A DNA stretch of 46,363 bases from positions 1-46,363 of the forward strand of contig VFZY01000021.1 of the NCBI GenBank assembly GCA_016870915.1. Direction: 5' to 3'. The translations under genes were made by a program, and so were the position numbers. Source of the DNA: Acidobacteriota bacterium (lineage in GTDB: Bacteria > Acidobacteriota > Terriglobia > Bryobacterales > Bryobacteraceae). Below, one piece after another: positions 3,069 to 15,284 of this stretch (position 1 is the stretch's first letter; each line of letters begins with the position of its first letter). The notes under the pieces were generated by a model. That model saw only the letters and a program-made list of their open reading frames with translations, did not search any database and was not told the origin of the DNA.

Positions 3069-4249
3069 CGTGCGGCCACCTCCTCGTTGGCCTTCATCAC
3101 TCGGATGAGGTTCAGTCCCATGATCTTGCGGATGTCCGCATCGGAGTATCCCTTCTCCGCCAGCGCCCGCACCAGCGCCGGATACTTCGAGACATCCTCC
3201 ATGCCCACCGGCACCATGCCGGAGACGCCGTCGAAGTCGGAGCCCAGACCAACATGGTCGGCGCCCACCAGCCGGGCTACATGGTCGATGTGATCCTCAA
3301 GCCGTGCCAGCGGAACCTTGGGCATCTTCTCAAAGTACTTCTTCTGAACGCCCCGGATCAGTTCCCAGCGCGAGGGGTCCTTGGGCCGCGTTTCGAGGAT
3401 GGTCTTGATCTCCCGGTCGCGCGCCTCGCGGTTCCGGATGTAGACGTCGTAGGCAGCCTCGTCAAGATAGCCCGCGTGGAAGTTGATGCACATGACACCA
3501 CCCTTGGAGGCAATGGCCCGGATGATCTCATCGGGCATGTTGCGAGGAATGGGCGCGATAGCCTTCACCGAGGAGTGCGAAGCGATTACCGGCGCGCGGC
3601 TGGCCGCCACCGTGTCGAGAACGGCCTTGTCGGAGATATGCGAGACGTCGGGAATCATGCCCAGGCGGTTCATCTCGCCGATGAGTTCGCGTCCCGCTTC
3701 GGAGAGGCCGCCGTGGCGGGGCGTGTCCGTCATCGAATCCGCATAGATGCTGTTGCGGAAATGGGCCAGCGTGATGTACCGGATGCCCAGCCGCGCAAAC
3801 TGGCGCAGCACAGGAAGGCTGTCATGGAACAGGTGGCCCCCTTCCAGGCTGGCAAGCGCCGCGATGCGCCCCGCCTTGTGGATCCGCAGGACGTCCGCCG
3901 AGGTGCGGGCAAATTCGACATCGCGCGGAACGCGCTTCAGTTCCTCATGCAGGGCGTCCAGCACCTCCATCGAACGTGGCATCCACTGCGCCTGGGGATA
4001 ATCCTGAGGCTGCGCGAACACGCCAAAGAACACCGCCCCCATGCGCCCCTTGCGCATGCGCGGCAGGTCGAGCTCATAGTAGCCGTGCTCGTCCGCCAGA
4101 CGGTAGCCTTCGTCAAGGAAGTAGCGGGGCGTGTCGATGTGGGCATCGAAGATGAGGATGTCGCGAAGCAGCCGTTCGACGCGGGCATCCAGGGCCCCCG
4201 GAGCTTGCGCCGCGAGTGCCAGCGGGAAAAGGCAAAGCAGTCTGTGCAT
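3065..4249 (-). CDS. Membrane dipeptidase (peptidase family M19), secreted
   Basis: A 394-residue renal-dipeptidase family zinc peptidase. Known: M19 enzymes cleave dipeptides, including those with a C-terminal D-residue, using a binuclear zinc site. Seen: a signal peptide (MHRLLCLFPLALAAQ), the HxD pair H37/D39 (FDAHIDT), bridging E136 (SLEGGH), H204 (DVSH), H225 (ASHSS) and a C-terminal GSDFDG motif, so the metal site looks intact. The reading frame stays open far upstream through the antisense of the collagen-like gene. The ATG at 4249 is chosen because it begins the signal peptide and the family homology. It is the first gene of a four-gene operon. A possible -10 (TACCAT) ends 8 nt before the start. 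Confidence 0.92.
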   Translation of the reverse strand: MHRLLCLFPLALAAQAPGALDARVERLLRDILIFDAHIDTPRYFLDEGYRLADEHGYYELDLPRMRKGRMGAVFFGVFAQPQDYPQAQWMPRSMEVLDALHEELKRVPRDVEFARTSADVLRIHKAGRIAALASLEGGHLFHDSLPVLRQFARLGIRYITLAHFRNSIYADSMTDTPRHGGLSEAGRELIGEMNRLGMIPDVSHISDKAVLDTVAASRAPVIASHSSVKAIAPIPRNMPDEIIRAIASKGGVMCINFHAGYLDEAAYDVYIRNREARDREIKTILETRPKDPSRWELIRGVQKKYFEKMPKVPLARLEDHIDHVARLVGADHVGLGSDFDGVSGMVPVGMEDVSKYPALVRALAEKGYSDADIRKIMGLNLIRVMKANEEVAAR

Positions 4250-4257
4250 TGACCGCG

Positions 4258-4263
4258 ATGGTA
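4258..4263 (-). promoter_or_regulatory. Possible -10 element of the dipeptidase operon, leaderless type
   Basis: On the minus strand the hexamer TACCAT (4 of 6 matches to TATAAT) is followed by exactly 8 nt and then the ATG at 4249. There is no Shine-Dalgarno sequence before this start. The same layout occurs at several other first genes in the window. Weak on its own and supported by the pattern. Confidence 0.3.
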
Positions 4264-4310
4264 TCAAGATACGCGAGGTAACGGGGGATAGATGATACGC
4301 TATGTAGACT

Positions 4311-5869
4311 ATGGAAGCTTCCATGCTCGGAAGGTGCCTGCTACGGCTGGCTCTGTTGCTTCCCCCCGGAATCGCCTGCGCACAGGAGCCCCCCGTTCCC
4401 CCGGCCCGAAGGATTGCCTTGCAGTACTCGGTGTCGCCCAATCTCTTGCCGCTGGGCGGTACGCCCCGTGTCTTCATCAGTCTCACCAACGTCAACCGTG
4501 ACTCCGACCAGCCCATACAGCCCGGCGACACGTTCACCATGGCATTCGAGCTGGGTGAAGGCCGGCTGCTGAGCCTGCCCGCAACCGTGGCAGTCCACTC
4601 CGGGTCGCTTGACCCGACGCTGTTCAGTTCAACGTCACGCGGGGCGAGAGCGCGAACCAGATCCTGGTGCGATACGACGGGCCGCCGCAGGCCTTCGCCT
4701 ACGGCGACAGCATCAACCTGGTGGCCCAGGTGGCATCTCGAACCACGGTGAACACCAGTTCGGTGTTCTTCCGTCCGCCGAACACGGAACGGTATGTGGA
4801 GCCCCTTGCCAACTTCGTCAAGCTGGCCACGGTGGACTTCGCCACGGGCCCGGCGGGGCCGCAGGGTCCGCCCGGGCAGGAGGGCCTGCCTGGACCGGCG
4901 GGTCCCTCGGGCCCCCAAGGTCCACAGGGCCTCGAGGGCCTGCGCTGGCGAGGGAACTTCTCGGTAGGCGTCACCTATGGCCGCGGCGACGTGATCCAGT
5001 TGAACGGCGGCGGCTTCGTCTGCGCGTCCGAAGCCTGCGTCGTGCCCCCGGCAACACCGGGCGATACCAGTTGGAATCAGTTGGTGCAGGGTGGCACCGG
5101 TCCGCAAGGACCGCCGGGACTCACCGGGGCCGCGGGTGCAGCGGGACCGCCAGGACCTGCCGGCATCCCGGGTCCGCCCGGAGCCACAGGAACCACGAGA
5201 CCAGCAGGACCCCAAGGGCCGCCCGGAGCTATAGGAACAACGGGACCGGCCGGACCCCAAGGGCCGCCCGGAGCCATAGGAGTAACCGGACCGGCCGGAC
5301 CCCAGGGGCCGCCCGGAGCTACGGGAACAACGGGACCGGCAGGACCCCAAGGGCCGCCCGGTGCCACAGGAACAACCGGACCAGCCGGACCCCAAGGGCC
5401 GCCCGGAGCCACGGGAACAACCGGACCAGCCGGACCCCAAGGGCCGCCCGGAGCCATAGGACCCGCCGGACCTACGGGAGCTACAGGACTGCCCGGGCCC
5501 GTCGGGCCCCAGGGCATCCCGGGCCCCGTGATCGGGGTATTTCCCATCGACACCACCATCCGTCAGAATGGCAGCGTCATCGCGGACAGTTCGACTGCGA
5601 TGGTCTTCTACTACGACAACGTCACATCGGCCGGCGGCACACTGAATCTGCCGACATGCAACTCGCCCGCCGCCGCGGGGCGGCGCATCACGGTGTTCGC
5701 CGTGAACATGCAGTTGGGCGCACTGCCTCCCAACCGGTTCGTGCTGGCGGCCAAGCCAGGCGAGTTGATCCACCGCAACGGGTTCGCACCGGCAGGGGTG
5801 ATAACGGGACTGTCGAGTTTCGTGGAAGTCATCTGCAACGGCACCGGCGTCTGGTCCACGTTGCGCTAG
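4311..5869 (+). CDS. Collagen-like secreted protein, interrupted by a frameshift near 4624
   Basis: The gene reads in one frame from ATG 4311 (or 4323) to about 4625, then continues one frame over from about 4613 to the stop at 5869. The joined protein is about 519 residues. Seen: a signal peptide ([16 protein letters not shown]), an N-terminal beta-rich domain (about 90 residues), a short Gly-X-Y block, a module resembling carbohydrate-binding modules of the 5/12 type ([20 protein letters not shown]), a long Gly-Pro-rich triple-helix block at about 5095-5530 and a C-terminal domain ([13 protein letters not shown]...) that may trimerise. Inserting one C in TTC-AG at 4623-4627 restores a natural protein ([14 protein letters not shown]), so the break is either a sequencing error or a recent mutation. 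Known: bacterial collagen-like proteins are cell-surface or extracellular. Its stop overlaps the convergent comM by 4 bp. Confidence 0.8.
5198..5467 (+). repeat. 45-bp tandem repeat encoding collagen Gly-X-Y units (6 copies)
   Basis: Six consecutive 45-bp units encode [11 protein letters not shown](I/T)G followed by TT, VT or PA. Units 3-5 are identical in protein sequence and differ only at a few synonymous bases. In the first unit the leading Gly codon GGA reads AGA (5198-5200), so an Arg interrupts the Gly-X-Y register. Such repeats expand and contract by slippage, so copy number may vary between strains. Confidence 0.9.
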
Positions 5870-7386
5870 CTCCAGTAGGAACGGTCGAGGCTGCGGTACT
5901 GAACTGCTTCGGCGATATGGCGCGCCTGGACCGCGGGCGCCGCGGCGAGGTCGGCGATGGTGCGGGCTACCTTCAGGATGCGGTCATGGGCCCGGGCCGA
6001 GAGGCCCATCTTGCGGACGGCCATTTCGAGGGTTCGCTCACCGGCATCCTCGAGGGCGCACAGATCGCGGAGGTGGTGGCTGGGGATGCCGGCGTTGGTG
6101 AAGCCGCGGGCGGCCTGGATGGCGCGGGCGGCCTGGACCCGTTCCGACATCTCGGCGGAGGAGGCTCCGGATTCGCGGCCTCGCAGTTCCTTGTAGGCAA
6201 CGGCGGGGACTTCGACGTGGAGATCGATGCGGTCGAGCAGGGGGCCGGAGATCTTGCCAAGGTAGCGCTGGATGATGGCGCCGGTGCAGCGGCACTCGCG
6301 GGTGGTATCGCCGAAGAAGCCGCAGGGGCAGGGGTTCATGGCCGCCACCAGCATGATGCGGGCCGGGAAGGTGAGGGTCATGTTGGCCCGGGCGAGGCTG
6401 ACCGAGCCTTCCTCCAGCGGTTGGCGCAGGAGTTCCAGCACGTTGCGGGCGAACTCCGGAAGCTCATCCAGGAACAGCACCCCGTTGTGGGCCAGGCTGA
6501 CTTCGCCGGGGCGGGCCATGCCGGCGCCGCCGCCGATGAGGCCGGCATCTGAGACCGTGTGGTGGGGCGAGCGGAAGGGGCGGCGGGTGAGCAGACCGGC
6601 ACCCTCCGGCAGCACGCCGGCCACGCTGTGGACCTGGGTGGTCTCGACCGCCTCCTCGAAGCCGAGCGGGGGCAGGATCCCGGCCAGCCGGCGGGCCAGC
6701 ATGGTCTTGCCGGAGCCGGGCGGGCCGACCATCAGGACGTTGTGGGAGCCGGCGGCGGCCACCTCCAGGGCGCGCTTGGCGGTCTGCTGGCCGCGGACGT
6801 CGGCGAAGTCCGGGATGTCGCCGGGCTGGCTGGACGTGGCCGGGCGGGCGGCCGAGGCGGGGGCCAGCGACCCAGGCCGGTTGAAGAGGCCGACCACCTC
6901 CCCGAGGTGGCGGACTCCGTAGACCTTGATGCCGTCGACGACCGCCGCCTCGAGGGCGTTCTCGCTGGGCACGATCAGGTTTGGAATCCCTTGTTTACGG
7001 GCACACACGGCGATGGAGAGGGCGCCGCGGACGGCGCGCACGGCGCCGTCGAGCGAGAGCTCACCCACCACCAGGAAGTGGTCACTGTAGGTGACCGTTC
7101 CCATGGCGCCCAGGATGCCCAGGGCCATGGGCAGGTCGAAGCCCGCACCCTCTTTCCGGACGTTGGCCGGGGCGAGGTTGATGGTGACCGACTTGGATGG
7201 ATAAACGAACCCGGAGTTCGACAGGGCGGACTTGATTCGCTCCCGGCTTTCGCGGATGGCCGTATCGGGCATGCCGACGGTGACGAAGTCGCGATTGCTG
7301 CCACCGGGGTACATGTCAACCTCGACGTCGATGAGGTGAGCGTCGATGCCGTAGACCGCGGCGCTACGGGTGCGAAACAGGGCCAT
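5866..7386 (-). CDS. comM: YifB/ComM family Mg-chelatase-like AAA+ ATPase
   Basis: A 506-residue protein of full family length. Known: ComM is a hexameric helicase that drives branch migration during natural transformation, and orthologues are widespread. Seen: an N-terminal Lon-like/ChlI domain (residues 1-170, with [19 protein letters not shown] and [12 protein letters not shown]), a linker, Walker A GPPGSGKT at 221-228, Walker [11 protein letters not shown] at 303-312, the NPCPCG motif at 351-356 with CRCTGA soon after (possible zinc-binding cysteines), and the C-terminal Mg-chelatase helical domain. It lies 48 bp downstream of the NHL gene on the same strand, so it may be read through from that operon. 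Presence of comM suggests, but does not prove, DNA uptake ability. Confidence 0.95.
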
Positions 7387-7434
7387 GAAAGTTAGTGGCC
7401 CTGGAGCGTGGAAGTTCTCCTGGTTTCTCCGTTG

Positions 7435-8508
7435 TTACTTCCTCCCGGGCCTTAGAATGCGGATGCGGTGGGCTTCGCTGTCACCCACGTAGAGCACACC
7501 GGCGCGGTCGATGAAGACGCCGTGGGGGCGGTTCATGCGGCAGGCGAGGGGGTCGCCGTCGGGCCCGTCGCCACGCTCGCCGGTGCCGGCGACGGTGGCG
7601 ATGGTCTTCTTCTTCAGGTCGATGCGGCGGACGGTGTGGCTTTCGGTGTCGGCGATGTAGACGCCGCCGTCGGGGGACCAGGCGATGCCTTTGGGCCCGG
7701 AGAGGCTGGCCTGGAGGGCGTCGCCATTGCGGAGGCCCTTCTCGCCGGTGCCCGCGATGTGGTGAATGGTCCTGGTGGCCCAGTTGATGCGGTAGACCTT
7801 GTTGCCTTCGCGGAGGGCGAGGTAGAGGTTGCCCGAGGGATCGACATCGAGGGCGCGCGGGCCATCGAGCGGGGTGCCGGCGAGTTTGGCTCCGTCGGGG
7901 GTTGGCTTGCGGTCGCCGGTGCCGGCCCAGGTGGAGATGGCGCCGGACTTGAGATCGACGCGGCGGATGCGGTGGTTGCCGATATCGCAGACCAGCAGCG
8001 AGCCATCGGGCGCGAAGACGATGGAGTGAGGCTGGCGGAACTGGGCCTGGACAGCGGGTCCGCCATCGCCCGAAAAGCCGGGCTTGCCGGTGCCGGCGAC
8101 GGTGGTGATGACGCGGGTTCGCGCATCGACGCGGCGGATGAGATGGTTGAGCATCTCGACGAAGAACATGTTGCCGGCCTTATCGAAGCGGATCTCGTAG
8201 GGTTCATTGAGGTCGGCCGAGGTGGCAGGGCCGCCGTCGCCGGAATAGCCTTTGCGGCCGGTGCCGGCGACCGTGGTGATGACACGGGTCTTCATGTCGA
8301 TGCGACGGATGACGTGGTTGCCGATTTCGCAGACGTAGAGGGCGCCATCGGGGCCGGTGACCAGGCCATACGGGTTGTTGATGGCGGCGGCGGCCGCCAT
8401 GCCGTTATCTCCCGAGTAGCCGGGCTTGCCGTTGCCGGTGATGGTGACGAGGGGACTCGCCGCGAGGGCCGCGGCCGCGGTGGCGAGGAGCAAAGTGGCT
8501 GCGCGCAT
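7435..8508 (-). CDS. Secreted NHL-repeat beta-propeller protein
   Basis: A 357-residue protein with a signal peptide (MRAATLLLATAAAALAAS) and about six NHL repeats. The repeats alternate TVAGTG(K/R)xGxSGDGGPA loops with GPDGALYVCEIGNHVIRRID-type strands. Known: NHL propellers mostly act as binding scaffolds, and some bacterial members are lyases or lactonases. No catalytic residues can be assigned here. It starts 1 bp after the cupin stop, so translation is probably coupled and the two products may act on the same material. The internal repetition is visible at DNA level. Acidobacterial genomes carry many such proteins, so the substrate cannot be inferred. Confidence 0.88.
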   Translation of the reverse strand: MRAATLLLATAAAALAASPLVTITGNGKPGYSGDNGMAAAAAINNPYGLVTGPDGALYVCEIGNHVIRRIDMKTRVITTVAGTGRKGYSGDGGPATSADLNEPYEIRFDKAGNMFFVEMLNHLIRRVDARTRVITTVAGTGKPGFSGDGGPAVQAQFRQPHSIVFAPDGSLLVCDIGNHRIRRVDLKSGAISTWAGTGDRKPTPDGAKLAGTPLDGPRALDVDPSGNLYLALREGNKVYRINWATRTIHHIAGTGEKGLRNGDALQASLSGPKGIAWSPDGGVYIADTESHTVRRIDLKKKTIATVAGTGERGDGPDGDPLACRMNRPHGVFIDRAGVLYVGDSEAHRIRILRPGRK

Positions 8509-8509
8509 G

Positions 8510-9730
8510 TCAGGCCACCTTTGCGCGAAGAGCCTCGGCGTCCGGGTTGCCGGGGCCGAAGTGTTTGAGCATCACCAGGTTTTCGGTGGCGCTGCGGTTG
8601 ACGATGGTGACGCCGTTGGCGGCCGCTTCGGCGGTGACGAACAGTTCGTCCTGCGTCATTTGGCCGTAGCGGATGAGGGACGGTGTTTCGACGGTGTGAG
8701 CGCCGACCGAACCCCAGCCCTGGACGACGATCATGCCGTAGGCGGCGGCATCGGCGATGGTGACGGAGCGGCCGGGATGAACGGTAAGTTCCTTGGCCGA
8801 ATAGTAACCGGTGGAGTAAACTACCCATTGATCCGAGTAACCGGCATCGGCCATGGCGGCCGGGTCACCGGCGGGCGTGGGATGGAAGAGGCGGCTCTTG
8901 GCGAATTCGGGATCGACGTTTGAGTCCCAATCGAGCATGGAGAGGATGTAATCGAGGTCGCGGTGGTGTTCCGGGGGAACATCCTTGACGAGGAGGTCCC
9001 ACGGGACGGCGCGGCCTTCGACCAGGGACTGGAACATGCCGAAGACGTCGGAGTTGACCTGCGGCTCGTAGGTGACGAGGGAGCCGGGGGCATGGAGAAT
9101 GCCGGCATCGATCTGCCAGCCGGTGCCGGGCTGGAGGCGGTATGCCTTGGAATGATAGAGGATTCCGTTATCGCCTTCATTCCAGCGTTCGAGGCAGCGG
9201 CGGATGTCGTCCTGCGTGGTGCCCGGTTCGAGGCCCATGAAGGTATACGGGAAATTGTTGTCCTTGAAGTTGTATTGGGGCGGGAAGTAGTACGCTTCCG
9301 GTTTGCCTTTCTGGCCGACGCGGCGGGCGAACTCATCGCTCTGGTGCATGTGGTGAGGGATGGGCCCGAGGTTGTCGAAGAACTTGCAGAGCAGGTTCCA
9401 GCCGCCTTCGCGGGCCATGACGGCGGAGCCCAGGAAGCGGTCGCCGATGGTGTCGATGGCTTCACGCAGGAGGACGCGTTTGCCGTGAACATCGATGTAG
9501 CTGAGCCCTTCATCCTGGGGCGTACCAGGGCCATTGGCGGCGTTGGTGGTGGAGGAGAACCAGCGTTCATCGATGCCGCCGCGATGGGCGCCGAGGGCGT
9601 AGAGGTCGCGCGGGTCCAGTTTGAGGCGTCCGCCGGGCATGAGGAAGGAGCGCGGGACCCAGCACGGGGCGAGGCGCACGATGCCGGCGCCTTCGGAGAG
9701 CGCCTGATTGAGAAGATCGAGATTGGACAT
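8510..9730 (-). CDS. Cupin protein related to class I mannose-6-phosphate isomerase
   Basis: A 406-residue cytoplasmic protein (no signal peptide) with a ManA-like jelly-roll layout. The metal site is likely HHMHQ at 126-130 and E145 in GKPEAYYFP, followed downstream by the WQIDAGILHAPGSLVTYEPQVNSDVF segment that in ManA-type enzymes carries the final His ligand. The C-terminal second cupin half ends at about residue 400. Known: the family isomerises mannose-6-phosphate and fructose-6-phosphate, but many divergent members act on other sugars or have unknown roles. A good Shine-Dalgarno (AAAGGAA) precedes the ATG. It sits between an exported amidohydrolase and an exported NHL protein. Not ManA itself: the usual N-terminal motifs are weak. 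Confidence 0.75.
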   Translation of the reverse strand: MSNLDLLNQALSEGAGIVRLAPCWVPRSFLMPGGRLKLDPRDLYALGAHRGGIDERWFSSTTNAANGPGTPQDEGLSYIDVHGKRVLLREAIDTIGDRFLGSAVMAREGGWNLLCKFFDNLGPIPHHMHQSDEFARRVGQKGKPEAYYFPPQYNFKDNNFPYTFMGLEPGTTQDDIRRCLERWNEGDNGILYHSKAYRLQPGTGWQIDAGILHAPGSLVTYEPQVNSDVFGMFQSLVEGRAVPWDLLVKDVPPEHHRDLDYILSMLDWDSNVDPEFAKSRLFHPTPAGDPAAMADAGYSDQWVVYSTGYYSAKELTVHPGRSVTIADAAAYGMIVVQGWGSVGAHTVETPSLIRYGQMTQDELFVTAEAAANGVTIVNRSATENLVMLKHFGPGNPDAEALRAKVA

Positions 9731-9757: not shown

Positions 9758-11038
9758 CTATCGGCGGCGGCGGCCTCCGCCGAGGGTACCGTCCCAGGCA
9801 GCATCGCTTTGGGATTCGTAGCGTTTGGGAAGTTTATCCCAATCGTCGCGGGTGATTCCGTTGAGGTCCCAGACGACCATGCCGTCACGGACGGTGAGTT
9901 CGGCCACGATGCGCTGGGCGCCTTTCATGCGGGCTCCGTTGACGTCGACGAAGCCGAAGCTGCCCTTTTCGACGCGGAGGACGGAGACGTCGGCGACGGC
10001 TCCCACGGAGAGGTGGCCGAGTTCCTCGCGCTTGATCTGGCGGGCGGGCGCCCAGGTGGATTTGGCGATGACGTCTTCGAGGGAGACGCCGATGTTGAGG
10101 AACTTGGACATGACGTTGGTCATATCCTTCATGCCGGCGTTCATGGAGCTGACGTGAAGGTCGGTTGAGATGGAGTCCGGCGCGAAGCCCTGCCGGATGG
10201 CGGGGACGGCCTGGCGGAAGAGGAAGCTGCCGCCGCCGTGGCCGGCATCGAAGAGGACGCCGCGTTTGCGGGCTTCCAGAAGATAGGGCATGAGCTTGCC
10301 GTTGTCGTCGATCATGGGGACGGCGCCGAGGTAGGTGTGCGTGTACATGTCGCCGGGGCGGAGTTTCTTCGTGACGAGTTCCTGGAAGGGGCGTTCGGAG
10401 CGGAAGTCGCCGAAATCGACCATGAGGGGGACGTTGGCGAGGCGGGCGGCTTCGATGCCGCGGTCGACGGCGACCCATTCGGGGCCGCGGTAGTGGGCGG
10501 TCTTGATGCCGACGGCGACGTCTTTGTGCTGGAGGACCATGTTGGCGGTGGACTGGGAGTCCATGTCGGTGTTGTCCTGCTCATTGGCGCCACCCATGCC
10601 GCGGCCGGCGATGTTGATGAGAGCGAGAATGCGGGTGCGGGCGCGATCGATGACGCGGTCGCGGAAATCGGGGAAGTTGCGCCAGCCGGAAGTACCGGCA
10701 TCGACCATGGTGGTGACGCCGCTGCGGAAGGCGTGGCCGTCGGGATAGACGCTCCAATCGCCGGTGTAGGCGTTGCGCATGCCGGTGCCGGCGTAGACGT
10801 GGACGTGAATATCGATGAGGCCAGGGGTGACATAAAGACCGGTGGCATCGACGGCGCGGCGGGCCGAGGAGGCGGCGATTCCCTGCCCCACGGCGGCGAT
10901 GCGTCCGTCCCGGATGGCGATGTCGCGCACGGCATTGATCCGATTTTTGGCATCGATGACGTGACCGTTGCGAAGGAGCAGGTCATATTGTTGAGCGCCG
11001 AGGGCGCCGGTAAGAACGAGCAACAGAGCCAGCTTCAT
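9758..11038 (-). CDS. Exported amidohydrolase/deacetylase-family metallohydrolase
   Basis: A 426-residue amidohydrolase-superfamily enzyme with a signal peptide (MKLALLLVLTGALGAQ). Metal-site residues by motif are H78 and H80 (DIHVHVY), a probable carboxylated K179 (VGIKTAHYRG), H234 (YTHTYLG), H267 (DAGHGGG) and D293 (STDLHVSS). The layout is that of the deacetylase group that includes N-acetyl-D-amino-acid or acetyl-ester hydrolases rather than ureases or dihydroorotases. It overlaps the stop of the upstream serine hydrolase by 4 bp (ATGA at 11035-11038), so translation is coupled. The C-terminus ends in GGGRRRR, an unusual basic tail. Substrate inferred only by family: an N-acyl amino acid or similar amide. 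Confidence 0.87.
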   Translation of the reverse strand: MKLALLLVLTGALGAQQYDLLLRNGHVIDAKNRINAVRDIAIRDGRIAAVGQGIAASSARRAVDATGLYVTPGLIDIHVHVYAGTGMRNAYTGDWSVYPDGHAFRSGVTTMVDAGTSGWRNFPDFRDRVIDRARTRILALINIAGRGMGGANEQDNTDMDSQSTANMVLQHKDVAVGIKTAHYRGPEWVAVDRGIEAARLANVPLMVDFGDFRSERPFQELVTKKLRPGDMYTHTYLGAVPMIDDNGKLMPYLLEARKRGVLFDAGHGGGSFLFRQAVPAIRQGFAPDSISTDLHVSSMNAGMKDMTNVMSKFLNIGVSLEDVIAKSTWAPARQIKREELGHLSVGAVADVSVLRVEKGSFGFVDVNGARMKGAQRIVAELTVRDGMVVWDLNGITRDDWDKLPKRYESQSDAAWDGTLGGGRRRR

Positions 11039-13539
11039 GGATTCACCTCCAGATGATTGGCCAGGCGGCCACTTTCGACAAGCTTGCGGCCTCCGGCTTC
11101 CACGGTGGCATTAGGAAAGAAGAACCAGCGGCAGAAACCGCCTCTGACCGCGCCACCGAGTTCTTCATTATCACCCAGGCTGAGGCGCACCATGCCGGCG
11201 CCATAAGCGAAGTAGGGGAGGACGCGTCCTGCGGGGCGCGCGAGCAGAGGATGGAAGCCGAGACCGAATTCCCGGAAGCGGCGCGCGGCGGGGCCGCCCT
11301 GAGCGAGCGCGGCTTCGACGGCGGCGAGGTTGGCGGCGGCGGAGAGCGCGGTGACGACGCCGTTGCGAAACTCCATGCGGATGCCGGTGGCGGTGACAGA
11401 GCCGAAGCGGGCTTCCGGGATGACGATGACGCCGTTGGCCGTGGATTCGAGCGGTGCGACGCGGACGGCGCCGGCGGGGAGTTCGACCTCCCGATCAATG
11501 CGGACGCGGGCCTGCTTCATGCGTTCGGGCGAGGCGTCGCCATCCTGCCGGGTGAAGGGGCGGCCGCGGACTTCAAACGTGATGTCCGTGCCGTCCGGCG
11601 TGGTGACGCGGACAGGGCCGGAGGCCAGGAGCGCGATGGCCTTATCCTGGCTGGCGGCGAGTGCCGGAGCGGGGGTGTCGAGGGCCTTCTCGTAGAGTGT
11701 GTCGAGCGCGGGGAAGTGTTCACCGAAGAGGCCGTCGGCGTAGACGCCGCCTTGTTGCCAGTGGAAATGAACTTCCCGATTCGCTCCGCCTTTGTCGAGC
11801 CAGGCGGTGAGGGCGGCGGCGTTTTCGGGGAGCATCTGGCGGCCGTCTTCCTGGACGGGGAGCCAGATGTAGGCGGTGGCGGTGGCGAGGCTTGGGGCGA
11901 AGGGCTTTGAGATGTCGACGCGTTCGGGGCGGGCTCCGATGGATTGCGCGTGGCTTTCAAGGAGCGCGGCGGTGGGGTGGAAGTTGCCGGGCTCATAGGG
12001 GATGAGGACGTGTTCTCCGGGCTGTAGTTTGATGGCGGCGGCGATGCGGCGGGTGAGGTTGTCGTGGGAAACGGCGGGATCGGCACGTTGGAAGGTGACT
12101 TCCTGCACGGTGAAGCCGGCGATGGAGCCATCGGGCCCGTGGTGGAAGTTGATGAGTTCGTTTTCGAAGGGGCCCTGGCGGGTGGTGAAAGTGTCGTGCT
12201 GGAAGTGTTCGAGGGCGTGGAGACGATTCATCCAGGCGAGGTGGAGGCGGCCGTCTTCGAGGCGGATGCGGGCGGCGCCGTAGGCGGGATGATTGAAGGC
12301 TCCGGCGAAGGCGATGAGGGGGAGGGAGGGTGCGGTGTCGCGGAGGCGCTGGGCATCGCGCTTTTCGATGCGCTCGCGATCCTGGCGTTCGAAGCGGGCG
12401 GCGAGTGTGGCGTAGTGGGCGTCCCAATCGCGGTGGTGGAGGTTGAGCATCTCATCGAGCAGATTGTTGGTGATGGCCTCAGGCACATTGGTGCCGTTGC
12501 GATTGGCAAGGACAACGATGCCGGTGTTCGAAGCGGGGTGGAGGGTGACGAGGGCCCGAAAGCCTTCAAGGACGCCGGAGTGGGCGACTAACATTTGGCC
12601 CTTGTAGTGCTGGATGAACCAGCCGAGGGCGTAGGTGCGCTGGGTCGTATCGGGGTTGAGCAGGCGCTCGCGTTCGGTCATGCGGATGACGGTATGAGGG
12701 GCGTGGGTTTCGGCGAGGGCGGCGGAGGAGATGAGACGGCGGCCTGAGGGGTCGAGACCGCCGGTGAGTTGGAAACGAACCCAGTAGGCGAGGTCGCGGA
12801 CGGAGGCGTTGATGCCGCCGGCGGCTCCGACGTTGTCGTAGTTGATCCATTGGCCGGGTGTGGGCCGGTTGTCGAGCAGGCGGTGGGGGATGGCGCGATC
12901 GGCGGTGGCGGTGGCGGTGGCGTGGCTGGTGGAGGCGTTGCGCATGTCGAGAGGGAGGAAGATGCGGGTGCGAAGGAAGTGGTCCCAGGTGGAGTTGGTG
13001 ACGGCTCCGATGAGCTCGCCGGCGGCGATGAACATGATGTTCTGATACTGGTACTCGCTTCGAAAGGGCTTGGTGAGTTTGACGTGGCCGATGCGGCGGA
13101 CGACTTCGGCGCGGGAGAGCGGGGTGCGTGCCCAGAGGGCGTCGTGACGGGCGAGCCCGGTGCGGTGGGAGACGATGTCGCGGAGGGCGGCGTTCTCGGA
13201 AGCGAAGGGGTCCGAAAGTTGGAACGAGGGGAGGTGTTTGCGGACAGGGTCATCCCAGTGGAGGCGGCCCTCGTCGGCGAGCATGGCGAGAGCCGTGGTG
13301 GCGAAGGCCTTGGTGGTGGAGGCGATCTGGAAGATGGATTCGGGGGTGATGGGATCGGGCTTGCCTTGTTCACGCAGGCCGTGGCCTTGCAGATAGAGGA
13401 TCTGGTTGCCGCGGACGATGGCGATGGCGGCGCCGGGGGTTTGCAGAGTGTTGAGAGATTGGGTGGCGAGTTCGGCGATGCGCGCAGGAGTGGGGACGGT
13501 TTGGGCGAGGACGGCGGCGAGGAGGAGGTGGAGGGCCAT
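11035..13539 (-). CDS. Class C beta-lactamase-like serine hydrolase fused to an M29 aminopeptidase-like domain
   Basis: An 834-residue exported protein. The start at 13539 (MALHLLLAAVLAQTVPTP) is preferred over upstream in-frame codons because it begins the signal peptide and lies 7 nt after a TACAAT box. Residues 20-370 are a serine beta-lactamase/D-aminopeptidase (S12-type) domain with S74-T-T-K77, Y165-Q-N167 and H320-S-G322, all catalytically intact. Residues about 375-490 look like the DUF3471-type domain found after such enzymes. Residues about 500-834 resemble leucyl aminopeptidase family M29 (VRVAPLESTANGVIVI, REFGLGFHP, LSLGDN), but most expected metal ligands are replaced. Known: S12 enzymes hydrolyse D-amino-acid peptides, esters or beta-lactams. 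Inference: an active serine hydrolase carrying a dead M29 domain as a binding module. First gene of a four-gene operon. Confidence 0.85.
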   Translation of the reverse strand: MALHLLLAAVLAQTVPTPARIAELATQSLNTLQTPGAAIAIVRGNQILYLQGHGLREQGKPDPITPESIFQIASTTKAFATTALAMLADEGRLHWDDPVRKHLPSFQLSDPFASENAALRDIVSHRTGLARHDALWARTPLSRAEVVRRIGHVKLTKPFRSEYQYQNIMFIAAGELIGAVTNSTWDHFLRTRIFLPLDMRNASTSHATATATADRAIPHRLLDNRPTPGQWINYDNVGAAGGINASVRDLAYWVRFQLTGGLDPSGRRLISSAALAETHAPHTVIRMTERERLLNPDTTQRTYALGWFIQHYKGQMLVAHSGVLEGFRALVTLHPASNTGIVVLANRNGTNVPEAITNNLLDEMLNLHHRDWDAHYATLAARFERQDRERIEKRDAQRLRDTAPSLPLIAFAGAFNHPAYGAARIRLEDGRLHLAWMNRLHALEHFQHDTFTTRQGPFENELINFHHGPDGSIAGFTVQEVTFQRADPAVSHDNLTRRIAAAIKLQPGEHVLIPYEPGNFHPTAALLESHAQSIGARPERVDISKPFAPSLATATAYIWLPVQEDGRQMLPENAAALTAWLDKGGANREVHFHWQQGGVYADGLFGEHFPALDTLYEKALDTPAPALAASQDKAIALLASGPVRVTTPDGTDITFEVRGRPFTRQDGDASPERMKQARVRIDREVELPAGAVRVAPLESTANGVIVIPEARFGSVTATGIRMEFRNGVVTALSAAANLAAVEAALAQGGPAARRFREFGLGFHPLLARPAGRVLPYFAYGAGMVRLSLGDNEELGGAVRGGFCRWFFFPNATVEAGGRKLVESGRLANHLEVNP

Positions 13540-13653: not shown

Positions 13654-14321
13654 TTACTCCTTGATGGGCTTTGGGGGTAAAAGTGGGGCTTGGCCGGGGC
13701 CGGGCTGGAGGGTTGTGTTGGGAGGGGTGGAAACGAACCTGAGGATGCCGGGGGAGCCTGGGGCGAAGGTGTCGAGGATGTTGAAGGGTTCGGGTGACGG
13801 GGTGGGACGCTGTTTCATGGACCGGCGTTCTTCGAGGGCCTGGCGGTGGAGTTTTTCGAGTTCGGCTCGGAGGAGGCGGGCGTGGCGGTGGGCGCGGCTG
13901 CGTTCGCGGAGCGCGGTGACGTAGCTGGGGCAGGTGTTGAGGCGGATGTAGGTGTTGGCGAGGACCTGGTCTTCGGTGGGGTTCTTGTTGCCGTGGCTGA
14001 TGAGGTTGGCGCGGGCTTCGGCGTGGTTGGAGATGAGGAGGGCTTCCTCGAAACGCTCGGCGCGTTGGATGTGCCAGAGTTCGGAGGCGAGTTGATCGAT
14101 GAGGGGGCGGTGGATTTCGGGGATGAGGTAGTGGTCGTGGAGGTCCTGGCGGAGCTGGTCGAAGTCTTCCTGGGATTCCCAGGGGAGGACTCGACCTTTG
14201 GCGTAGAGGCCGTGTTGGAGGGAGTTTTGGGCGGACCGGGCTTTGCCTTGGGGGGTGACGGGTCCGGTTGAGAGGGCGCCGTTGGCGCGGGAGGTGTTGG
14301 ATTGACGTGTGGTGCGGACAT
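13654..14321 (-). CDS. Conserved hypothetical protein, start region apparently frameshifted
   Basis: The main frame encodes RQSNTSRANGALSTGP...ARSAQNSLQHGLYAKG, a charged helical middle (DFDQLRQDLHDHYL, LRAELEKLHRQALEERR) and a Pro-rich tail (about 220 residues). I recognise the ANxALSTGPxTPxGKARSxxNxLxHGL signature as a hypothetical family that, as I recall, is common in Acidobacteria and Planctomycetes. The function is unknown. The main frame has no ATG or GTG near the homology start. The ATG at 14319-14321 gives MSAP and then leaves frame. Removing two bases of the GTGTG run at 14307-14311 would give MSAPRQSNTSRANG, the expected kind of start. So there is either a 2-bp insertion or a rare start codon further upstream. 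The mRNA is strikingly C/A-rich. Confidence 0.6.
13666..13727 (+). other. Potential G-quadruplex tract (8 G-runs)
   Basis: The plus strand has G-runs of three or more at 13666-13668, 13673-13677, 13684-13687, 13695-13698, 13702-13704, 13710-13712, 13720-13722 and 13724-13727, with every loop 7 nt or shorter. It overlaps the 3' end of the hypothetical gene, where it is the template strand and encodes the Pro-rich tail. Confidence 0.55.
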
Positions 14322-14341
14322 CCTCGTGGTTGAGGATGTCC
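14316..14341 (-). repeat. Perfect 10-bp inverted repeat enclosing the likely start codon
   Basis: GGACATCCTC (14316-14325) and GAGGATGTCC (14332-14341) are perfect reverse complements separated by 6 nt. On the minus strand the candidate ATG of the hypothetical gene (14319-14321) lies in the second arm, so folding of the mRNA would hide it. No T-run follows, so it is not a standard terminator. Confidence 0.7.
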
Positions 14342-14393
14342 GGAAAATCGTTGAAAGTAGGGTGCCCGCACCCCGTTGCGATGCGGCGCGAGT

Positions 14394-14399
14394 TATGAT
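14394..14399 (+). promoter_or_regulatory. Possible -10 (TATGAT) and leader hairpin of the lipoprotein gene
   Basis: TATGAT matches 5 of 6 bases of the -10 consensus. It is followed by a roughly 48-nt leader containing a perfect 7-bp hairpin (GAACACC 14405-14411, GGTGTTC 14417-14423) and a GAAGGTG Shine-Dalgarno before the ATG at 14454. No good -35 was found. Confidence 0.35.
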
Positions 14400-14453
14400 A
14401 TCCAGAACACCCAGACGGTGTTCGCCACAATACTCCATGTCCGAAGGTGCAAG

Positions 14454-15284
14454 ATGATGAATCGTTTCGCTGAAATGGCCGCGCTGGCCTCTCTCTCACT
14501 GGCTCTGATTTCCTGCTCTTCCGGCGGACCGGCGCCGGTCGCCAAGGGCTCCCCCGAGTTCTACTGGCAAGCGGCGCGGGAGACTTTCAATGGTGGTGAC
14601 GCGCAGAAGGCGTCCGATCATCTGAAGAGCCTGCTCAAGGGGAAAAACGAGTTCACCACGCGTGCGCAGGCATGGCAGGCGATTGTCCTGGCGGGCATGG
14701 CTGCGGGGCAGCTTGAAATGGCTGAGACGTTCGAGACGGGCAACAAAGTGAACAAATCGAACCCGACGCCCTTCCGCAAGAAGATGTCGGACTACCGGAC
14801 TCTGGCCAACCAGACGGTGCTCGCGTTCGCCGAAGCCTACGGCGCCTTCGTCAAGGACAGCACGGGCGACAAGGTGACCGTTGAGTTGCCATTCCCGCCC
14901 GGGACCAGCGGCAAGCCGGCGGAGTTGGACAAGCTGGCGAGCGGCATTCTGCTGGCGGATGCCGACATTGAAGCTCTGGCCCGCCGGGTGCAGGCCCGCA
15001 ACGTAATTTTGACCGTGGCCGATGCGGTGGGCGCCACAGGCGATGCTGCCAAGGCCAAGGAACTCTTGCGCCTTGGGACCATGGAAGTGCCCAAGACGCA
15101 GTTCATGCTGGCGATGGCCAAGGCGCTCAACAAACAGGCGGACCTGTACGGCAAGCGCAAGCTGGATCAGCCGGACAAGGCGAAGTTCCTCCTGGCCCAG
15201 GCCCAGCAGGCGCTGGCGGCGGTTCCCGAGGGCAAGGAGAAGAAGGAAGTCGCCGAGGACCTGAAGAAAAAGACCAAGATCTGA
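14454..15284 (+). CDS. Putative lipoprotein with TPR-like helical repeats, function unknown
   Basis: A 276-residue protein. The ATG at 14454 (or 14457) follows a Shine-Dalgarno-like GAAGGTG and starts a lipoprotein signal with lipobox LISC, so C21 is the likely lipidated residue. The mature protein is almost wholly helical, with segments such as WQAARETFNGGDAQKASDHLKSLLKG and LLAQAQQALAAVPEGKEKKEVAEDL that resemble tetratricopeptide-type repeats. No catalytic motif is visible. Known: such lipoproteins often serve as periplasmic scaffolds. The gene is 78 bp upstream of yvcK on the same strand with an inverted repeat between them. The downstream neighbour gives no clear hint of its role. Confidence 0.8.
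   Translation: MMNRFAEMAALASLSLALISCSSGGPAPVAKGSPEFYWQAARETFNGGDAQKASDHLKSLLKGKNEFTTRAQAWQAIVLAGMAAGQLEMAETFETGNKVNKSNPTPFRKKMSDYRTLANQTVLAFAEAYGAFVKDSTGDKVTVELPFPPGTSGKPAELDKLASGILLADADIEALARRVQARNVILTVADAVGATGDAAKAKELLRLGTMEVPKTQFMLAMAKALNKQADLYGKRKLDQPDKAKFLLAQAQQALAAVPEGKEKKEVAEDLKKKTKI

Follow-up and report, generated by a model that had tools for sequence, protein, structure and literature searches.

What does a protein domain with a metallopeptidase fold do once its metal ligands have been lost? The question is raised by a gene on the minus strand (11035..13539) of the window, i.e., the whole 46,363-nucleotide stretch analysed here (contig VFZY01000021.1, assembly GCA_016870915.1), which derives from an Acidobacteriota bacterium of the Bryobacteraceae. 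The 834-residue product features a signal-peptide-like start (judged by eye), an S12 serine hydrolase domain, a DUF3471 region and a C-terminal domain (residues 488-834; 11038..12078, minus strand) assigned to the M29/NicX fold by an AlphaFold2 model, a fold search and hhalign. A first-pass annotation had described the latter as a dead M29 peptidase kept as a binding module on an active hydrolase. The balance tips slightly towards a different reading, namely a probably exported family in which other residues took over the metal site and became fixed there, and in which a metal-independent pocket would work with amide hydrolases. The domain defines a distinct family within the M29/NicX fold group. 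It is filed neither as an M29 peptidase nor as a NicX-type dioxygenase, because the ligands that define these enzymes were checked and were not found as a set.

Relatives were collected from genome contigs. A search with the single sequence found no loci; an alignment-based profile search then gave 125 loci, 80 of which were kept. The alignment used throughout consists of the window sequence and 79 of the kept loci (80 rows). L122, in which the domain is split across two frames, was excluded, while L072 and L088, which are cut by contig ends, were retained. A first alignment had left out L009 and L040-L043, which are partial or divergent, and the weak matches L010 and L011. Kept loci span Acidobacteriota, Gemmatimonadota, Bacteroidota and Pseudomonadota, plus one record labelled KSB1, taxon names being taken from record titles, mostly of metagenome-assembled genomes (MAGs). 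Within the taxonomic family of the window, 27 of 237 genomes carry a match at E<=1e-5. The 29 matches include two with an in-frame stop (in G113 and G168), two short ones (G164 C1026 and G190 C39) and one remote M29-type protein (L043; G164 C696). Neither the family nor the fusion was found described in the open-access literature, among the matches listed.

Taken singly, the window sequence matches the Pfam M29 model (PF02073) with 17.7-20.5 bits, under the Pfam cut-off of 27. The same model is matched at E<=0.01 by 73 of the 80 family members (best E, 2.9e-12), and no NCBIfam model matched more than one of them. Aligned to three M29-type proteins (L043 and two that score 525 and 403 bits against the Pfam M29 model), the 80-row profile yielded an hhalign probability of 98.0 (E=1.8e-13). 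A probability of 95.9 was obtained with ten ligand-complete M29-like proteins, one of which is from the window's own genome. The AlphaFold2 model of residues 488-834 is a confident one (predicted local distance difference test, pLDDT, 95.5; predicted template modelling score, pTM, 0.93). In a fold search with this predicted model, the nearest solved structure was the 2,5-dihydroxypyridine 5,6-dioxygenase NicX (7cn3_C; Z 26.5, root-mean-square deviation 3.4, 300 aligned residues; see also 7cup). The M29 enzymes AmpS, AmpT and PepS (1zjc, 2ayi, 4ics) came second, with Z 21.3-22.2 over 306-313 residues, and the crocagin biosynthesis proteins CgnE (6zsu, Z 11.0) and CgnB (6zsv, Z 10.3) were more distant. 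Rows past rank 9 (Z of about 8 and lower) were left unused. The domain is a remote M29 relative, and the family name first given to it is right at the fold level. That M29 is the closest relative is not supported: as far as the predicted model tells, the ring-opening Fe(II) dioxygenase NicX is the closer structure and shares its fold with the domain over nearly the full length.

M29 enzymes feature six residues (EEHYHD), each of which is essential in LmAmpII according to passages of PMC7023490, from which the AmpS numbering is also taken. Via the row of the M29-type L043, AmpS E253, E319, H348, Y355, H381 and D383 correspond to A691, E757, R785, E792, R804 and F806 of the window domain. One of the six is kept and five are replaced. 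A691 (in PAGAV; 11467..11469, as all following on the minus strand), in the place of the first Glu ligand, is A in 47 and V in 33 of the 80 sequences. E757 (in REFGLGF; 11269..11271) is the retained bridging Glu and is identical in all 80. The place of the M29 His is taken by R785 (in MVRLSLG; 11185..11187), found in 79/79 sequences, and the column of E792, in the place of the Tyr, is mixed (E in 26/79). In the L043 register, the H and D of the M29 HxD motif are replaced by R804 (in CRWFF; 11128..11130; R 75, Y 3, Q 1 of 79) and F806 (11122..11124; N 42, F 29, L 7, C 1 of 79). The last strand cannot be placed in one register with certainty, as the H and D places are 802/804 if the M29 row L126 is followed, 803/805 with NicX and 804/806 with L043. 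Residues 802-806 (FCRWF) hold neither His nor Asp, so the loss of ligands stands in every register. The five positions named in the first-pass annotation are all as it gave them, as is the loss of all M29 ligands except E757, and the substitutions proved to be conserved across genomes, as R785 and R804 illustrate.

NicX ligands are missing as well. Its iron is bound by H265, S302, H318 and D320 (passages of PMC7910607). In the joint alignment H265 corresponds to E757 and S302 to S787, while H318 and D320 fall within FCRWF, with no His or Asp counterpart; the Ser alone is kept. The likeness extends around this residue, since the S302/N306/E308/GG stretch of NicX aligns with S787/N791/E793/GG. 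The NicX substrate residues E177 and H189 correspond to Q665 and E686.

The site thus vacated is replaced, not eroded, and in this respect the notion of a dead peptidase did not hold. R588, H591, H593, W594, R660, E686, R693, E698, R756, E757 and Y779 are identical in 80/80 sequences; R785, N791 and E793 are identical in 79/79, S787 is found in 77/79 and D790 in 73/79. Nineteen positions with polar or aromatic residues show 97-100% conservation across the 80 sequences. Three of the invariant residues belong to a family motif, HFHW (residues 591-594; 11758..11769). A set of 21 checked residues is the same in all eight rows compared (the window, L045, L050, L052, L058, L066, L075 and L101). Seven positions that map to the NicX active site have a mean conservation of 0.91, compared with 0.59 for random columns, a value reached in 7 of 20,000 draws; with the last strand in its other register the mean is 0.95, reached in 0 of 20,000. 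N306, which the passages of the NicX source do not name as an active-site residue, was omitted from this test. The alignment suggests that the conserved residues line the old pocket. An assignment of HFHW to the place of NicX L104-H105 was dropped, as the joint alignment puts L104/H105 at the variable positions 564/565.

The N-termini of most members resemble Sec or lipoprotein signals, as judged by eye and from a crude count of hydrophobicity, and the family, including the window protein, is probably mostly exported. Members differ in this from NicX, as they do in being often tied to hydrolases. Differences from the M29 enzymes include a shorter protein and, in most members, the signal-like N-termini. 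The N-termini of L077, L078 and L085 have no signal-like stretch, and a gene for HemD (uroporphyrinogen-III synthase) lies directly upstream in L077 and L085; this sub-clade is possibly a cytoplasmic branch.

Fusions to hydrolases recur in the family. Among the 80 rows, three are S12 fusions, 11 carry a class-A beta-lactamase-like domain, one an M19 dipeptidase (L045) and one an amidohydrolase (Amidohydro_2; L075). No fused hydrolase was detected in the remaining 64, that is, their open frames gave no match to the S12 or class-A profile, and neither an M19 nor an amidohydrolase domain was found; Pfam scans of the N-terminal extensions of six of these 64 found no domain. The S12 fusion of the window, for which the first-pass annotation had suggested a search in other genomes, is present in L050 (detected, as in the window, by Pfam) and in L052 (detected by our own profile). 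Such fusions are unlikely to be assembly artefacts, because the frames are without stops and the L052 record is titled 'nearly complete genome'. All class-A-like fusions were identified with our own profile, and L061 and L062 also by Pfam (PF13354). A tree obtained with a quick method contains 10 architecture changes, gain and loss not being distinguished, and its starred branches force at least three for S12 and at least four for class A.

Class-A partners keep the SxxK, SDN and KTG motifs. The omega-loop of beta-lactamases reads ExxLN. In 10 of the 11 partners the corresponding stretch is R(P/S)TxxLIA, and the pattern has no match in L058. Because of this difference, peptidases of the penicillin-binding type are a likelier identity for the partners than resistance enzymes, to judge from their motifs. 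Seven of the 11 class-A fusions have an S12 gene directly upstream; L044 starts too close to a contig end to be judged. Six of the seven are in one clade, and the rows are therefore not independent.

S12 genes also cluster around family members. We found 18 in 1.09 Mb around 79 members, of which two are fused, 13 are adjacent on the same strand and three are elsewhere. The window's own genome contains 18 S12 genes in 6.6 Mb by a stricter search (Pfam, E<=1e-10), hence about three would be expected in 1.09 Mb, the two detection methods being not quite alike. Some of the counted genes had themselves been used to build the S12 profile; of these, the genes at L051, L072 and L095 are confirmed by Pfam and those at L075 and L097 are not. 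Matches are weak in two of the 13 adjacent genes, L091 (1e-8) and L098 (7e-8), and L103, counted among the three elsewhere, overlaps the end of the frame of the family gene.

A natural deletion separates the domain from its partners. L058 and L066 are collinear (75-85% DNA identity), and L066 lacks two stretches, one of 1436 bases with almost the entire S12 gene and one of 861 bases with the class-A catalytic domain. What is kept is the stretch for the signal peptide and the M29/NicX-fold domain in full, including all 21 checked residues. Loss in L066 is the simpler reading because this locus sits inside a class-A clade. It therefore appears that the domain can be of use in the absence of both the S12 and the class-A hydrolase.

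How could such a domain work? In the reading that we slightly favour, the ancestral pocket would be kept, with HFHW as a new motif of the family and with a new lining of Arg, Glu, Ser, Asn and Tyr residues that hardly vary. It would do without the ancestral metal centre and would handle a small carboxylate- or amide-bearing ligand, for instance a dipeptide of D-amino acids or a product of that kind. The domain may act on, or hold, what a partner amide hydrolase (S12, class-A-like, M19 or amidohydrolase) of the same pathway takes as its substrate or releases as its product. The partner would usually be unfused; in the window protein the S12 hydrolase would be tethered via DUF3471. We lean slightly towards a catalytic step of the domain's own over pure binding. 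A bolder formulation is tentative, and we rate it as possible rather than probable: members may form a new class of exported metal-independent enzymes, in which the ligands of a two-metal peptidase or iron dioxygenase scaffold became arginines, which perform a second step on the products of amide hydrolases of the penicillin-binding type and others, and which entered several independent fusions.

Pure binding is somewhat doubtful as an alternative. The domain would be a pseudo-enzyme that presents a peptide or peptidoglycan fragment to the serine hydrolase, as the first-pass annotation proposed, and there is a precedent in crocagin biosynthesis, where CgnE is believed to bring its peptide to the oxygenase CgnC. 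According to passages of PMC10070186, CgnE is a solved protein of M29-related fold with a broken metal site and forms with CgnB a pair that binds peptide. The window domain, too, has an M29-related fold with a broken metal site, the CgnE structure is among its fold matches, and both the fusions and the adjacency to several hydrolases fit a presenting role. The lost residues differ from those of CgnE, and the CgnB/CgnE family is described in the same passages as having no additional domains, unlike the hydrolase-fused window domain. A module serving an attached hydrolase is hard to reconcile with the 64 rows in which none was detected, and with L066, in which the domain is intact although both hydrolases of its relative L058 are missing; the domain may bind a ligand all the same. 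The nearly invariant polar residues are numerous for a domain that would do no more than bind. Ordinary decay, in which an inactive, weakly constrained peptidase domain would have stayed fused by chance, is very improbable. Replacement of five of the six M29 residues would agree with decay, as would L041 (G168 C86), a degraded-looking copy of the domain in another genome, which has an in-frame stop and lacks motifs, in contrast to the other members. The idea is rejected on the conservation counts, as 19 positions have stayed nearly fixed over four phyla.

An improbable alternative is a relocated metal site, built from H591 and H593 of the N-terminal half together with E757, S787, D790 or E793 and possibly housing iron, as in NicX. 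These residues are invariant or nearly so, S787 and E757 occupy the places of S302 and H265, both iron ligands in NicX, and it is an iron enzyme that gives the best fold match. Arginines nevertheless stand at the M29 His ligand (R785) and in or beside the place of another ligand (R804), H318 and D320 of NicX lack counterparts, and HFHW does not align with NicX L104-H105. That the invariant HxH, with E757, E793 and D790, could form a new metal site is one of several points that weigh against a metal-independent pocket partnered with hydrolases. NicX L104 and H105 map to variable positions, and adding both to the conservation test gives p=0.016 (0.006 in the other register). The six M29 positions are no more conserved than random columns (p=0.11), and the pocket-facing orientation of the new residues rests on the alignment. 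Most rows are from MAGs, and near-copies are not independent. The full-length model has a pTM of 0.57 and DUF3471 is poorly modelled, so no domain arrangement is claimed. Among the 80 loci, the window amidohydrolase described below lacks any full-length relative, and for the cupin-like window gene there is a single relative (in L082).

Members of the family risk being named aminopeptidases, since M29 is their only recurrent Pfam match, though they lack the residues for that chemistry. The recurrent fusions, with S12, class-A-like, M19 and amidohydrolase partners, hint that a single class of substrate is shared, which these natural two-domain constructs may serve to probe. If true, the proposal adds a case of what the M29/NicX scaffold does after metal loss.

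The front half of the window protein is a clear member of the S12 hydrolases with DUF3471, from which the protein differs by its C-terminal fusion partner. The frame runs from an ATG at 13539 to a stop at 11035, and an alternative upstream ATG (13638) would yield an 867-residue product. PF00144 matches residues 24-358 (12466..13470) with E=7e-60 and 203 bits, and the SxxK, YxN and HSG motifs reported earlier are found as STTK (residues 74-77; 13309..13320), with the presumed nucleophile Ser74 and Lys77, YQN (165-167; 13039..13047) and HSG (320-322; 12574..12582). DUF3471 (PF11954; E=3e-13) covers residues 401-484 (12088..12339).

No partner of the window gene neighbourhood is conserved among family loci. 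Neighbour clustering, which was dominated by antisense shadow open reading frames, was used solely to choose neighbours. Downstream, an amidohydrolase gene (9758..11038, minus strand; PF07969/PF01979) starts inside the stop of the fusion gene, with an ATGA overlap read directly. It is followed by a gene for a 406-residue protein (8510-9730, minus strand) with no match in a Pfam scan, which looks cupin- or homogentisate-dioxygenase-like; a 53% identical relative is located in L082, about 5 kb from the family gene. A few genes downstream of the fusion gene lies an M19 membrane dipeptidase gene identified by Pfam (3065 to about 4250, minus strand). Its frame spans 902 residues, and the part before about residue 510 looks by eye like a non-coding extension; M19 is also the family fused to the M29/NicX-fold domain in L045. 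The gene upstream of the fusion gene, on the same strand (13654-14499), contains a STGPVTPQGKARSAQNSLQHGL stretch and has no Pfam match.

Other loci feature further neighbours. In L081, from Bacteroidota, the gene directly upstream of the family gene (6440-7792) has a weak, sub-threshold match to alkaline ceramidase, an amidase, and members of its cluster also adjoin L082, L084 and L086. An FmdA/AmdA formamidase/acetamidase gene (3933-5009, plus strand) is directly downstream of the family member in L112, a Gemmatimonas MAG. L124 (C54 of the window's own genome), L131 and L132 encode M29-like proteins with complete ligand motifs (GGE, GEFAIGTN, HIAFG or HMAFG, THID). They appear to represent a second M29-like family of these bacteria, one that has all its ligands. 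Each of the three genes is followed by a gene encoding 390-405 residues.

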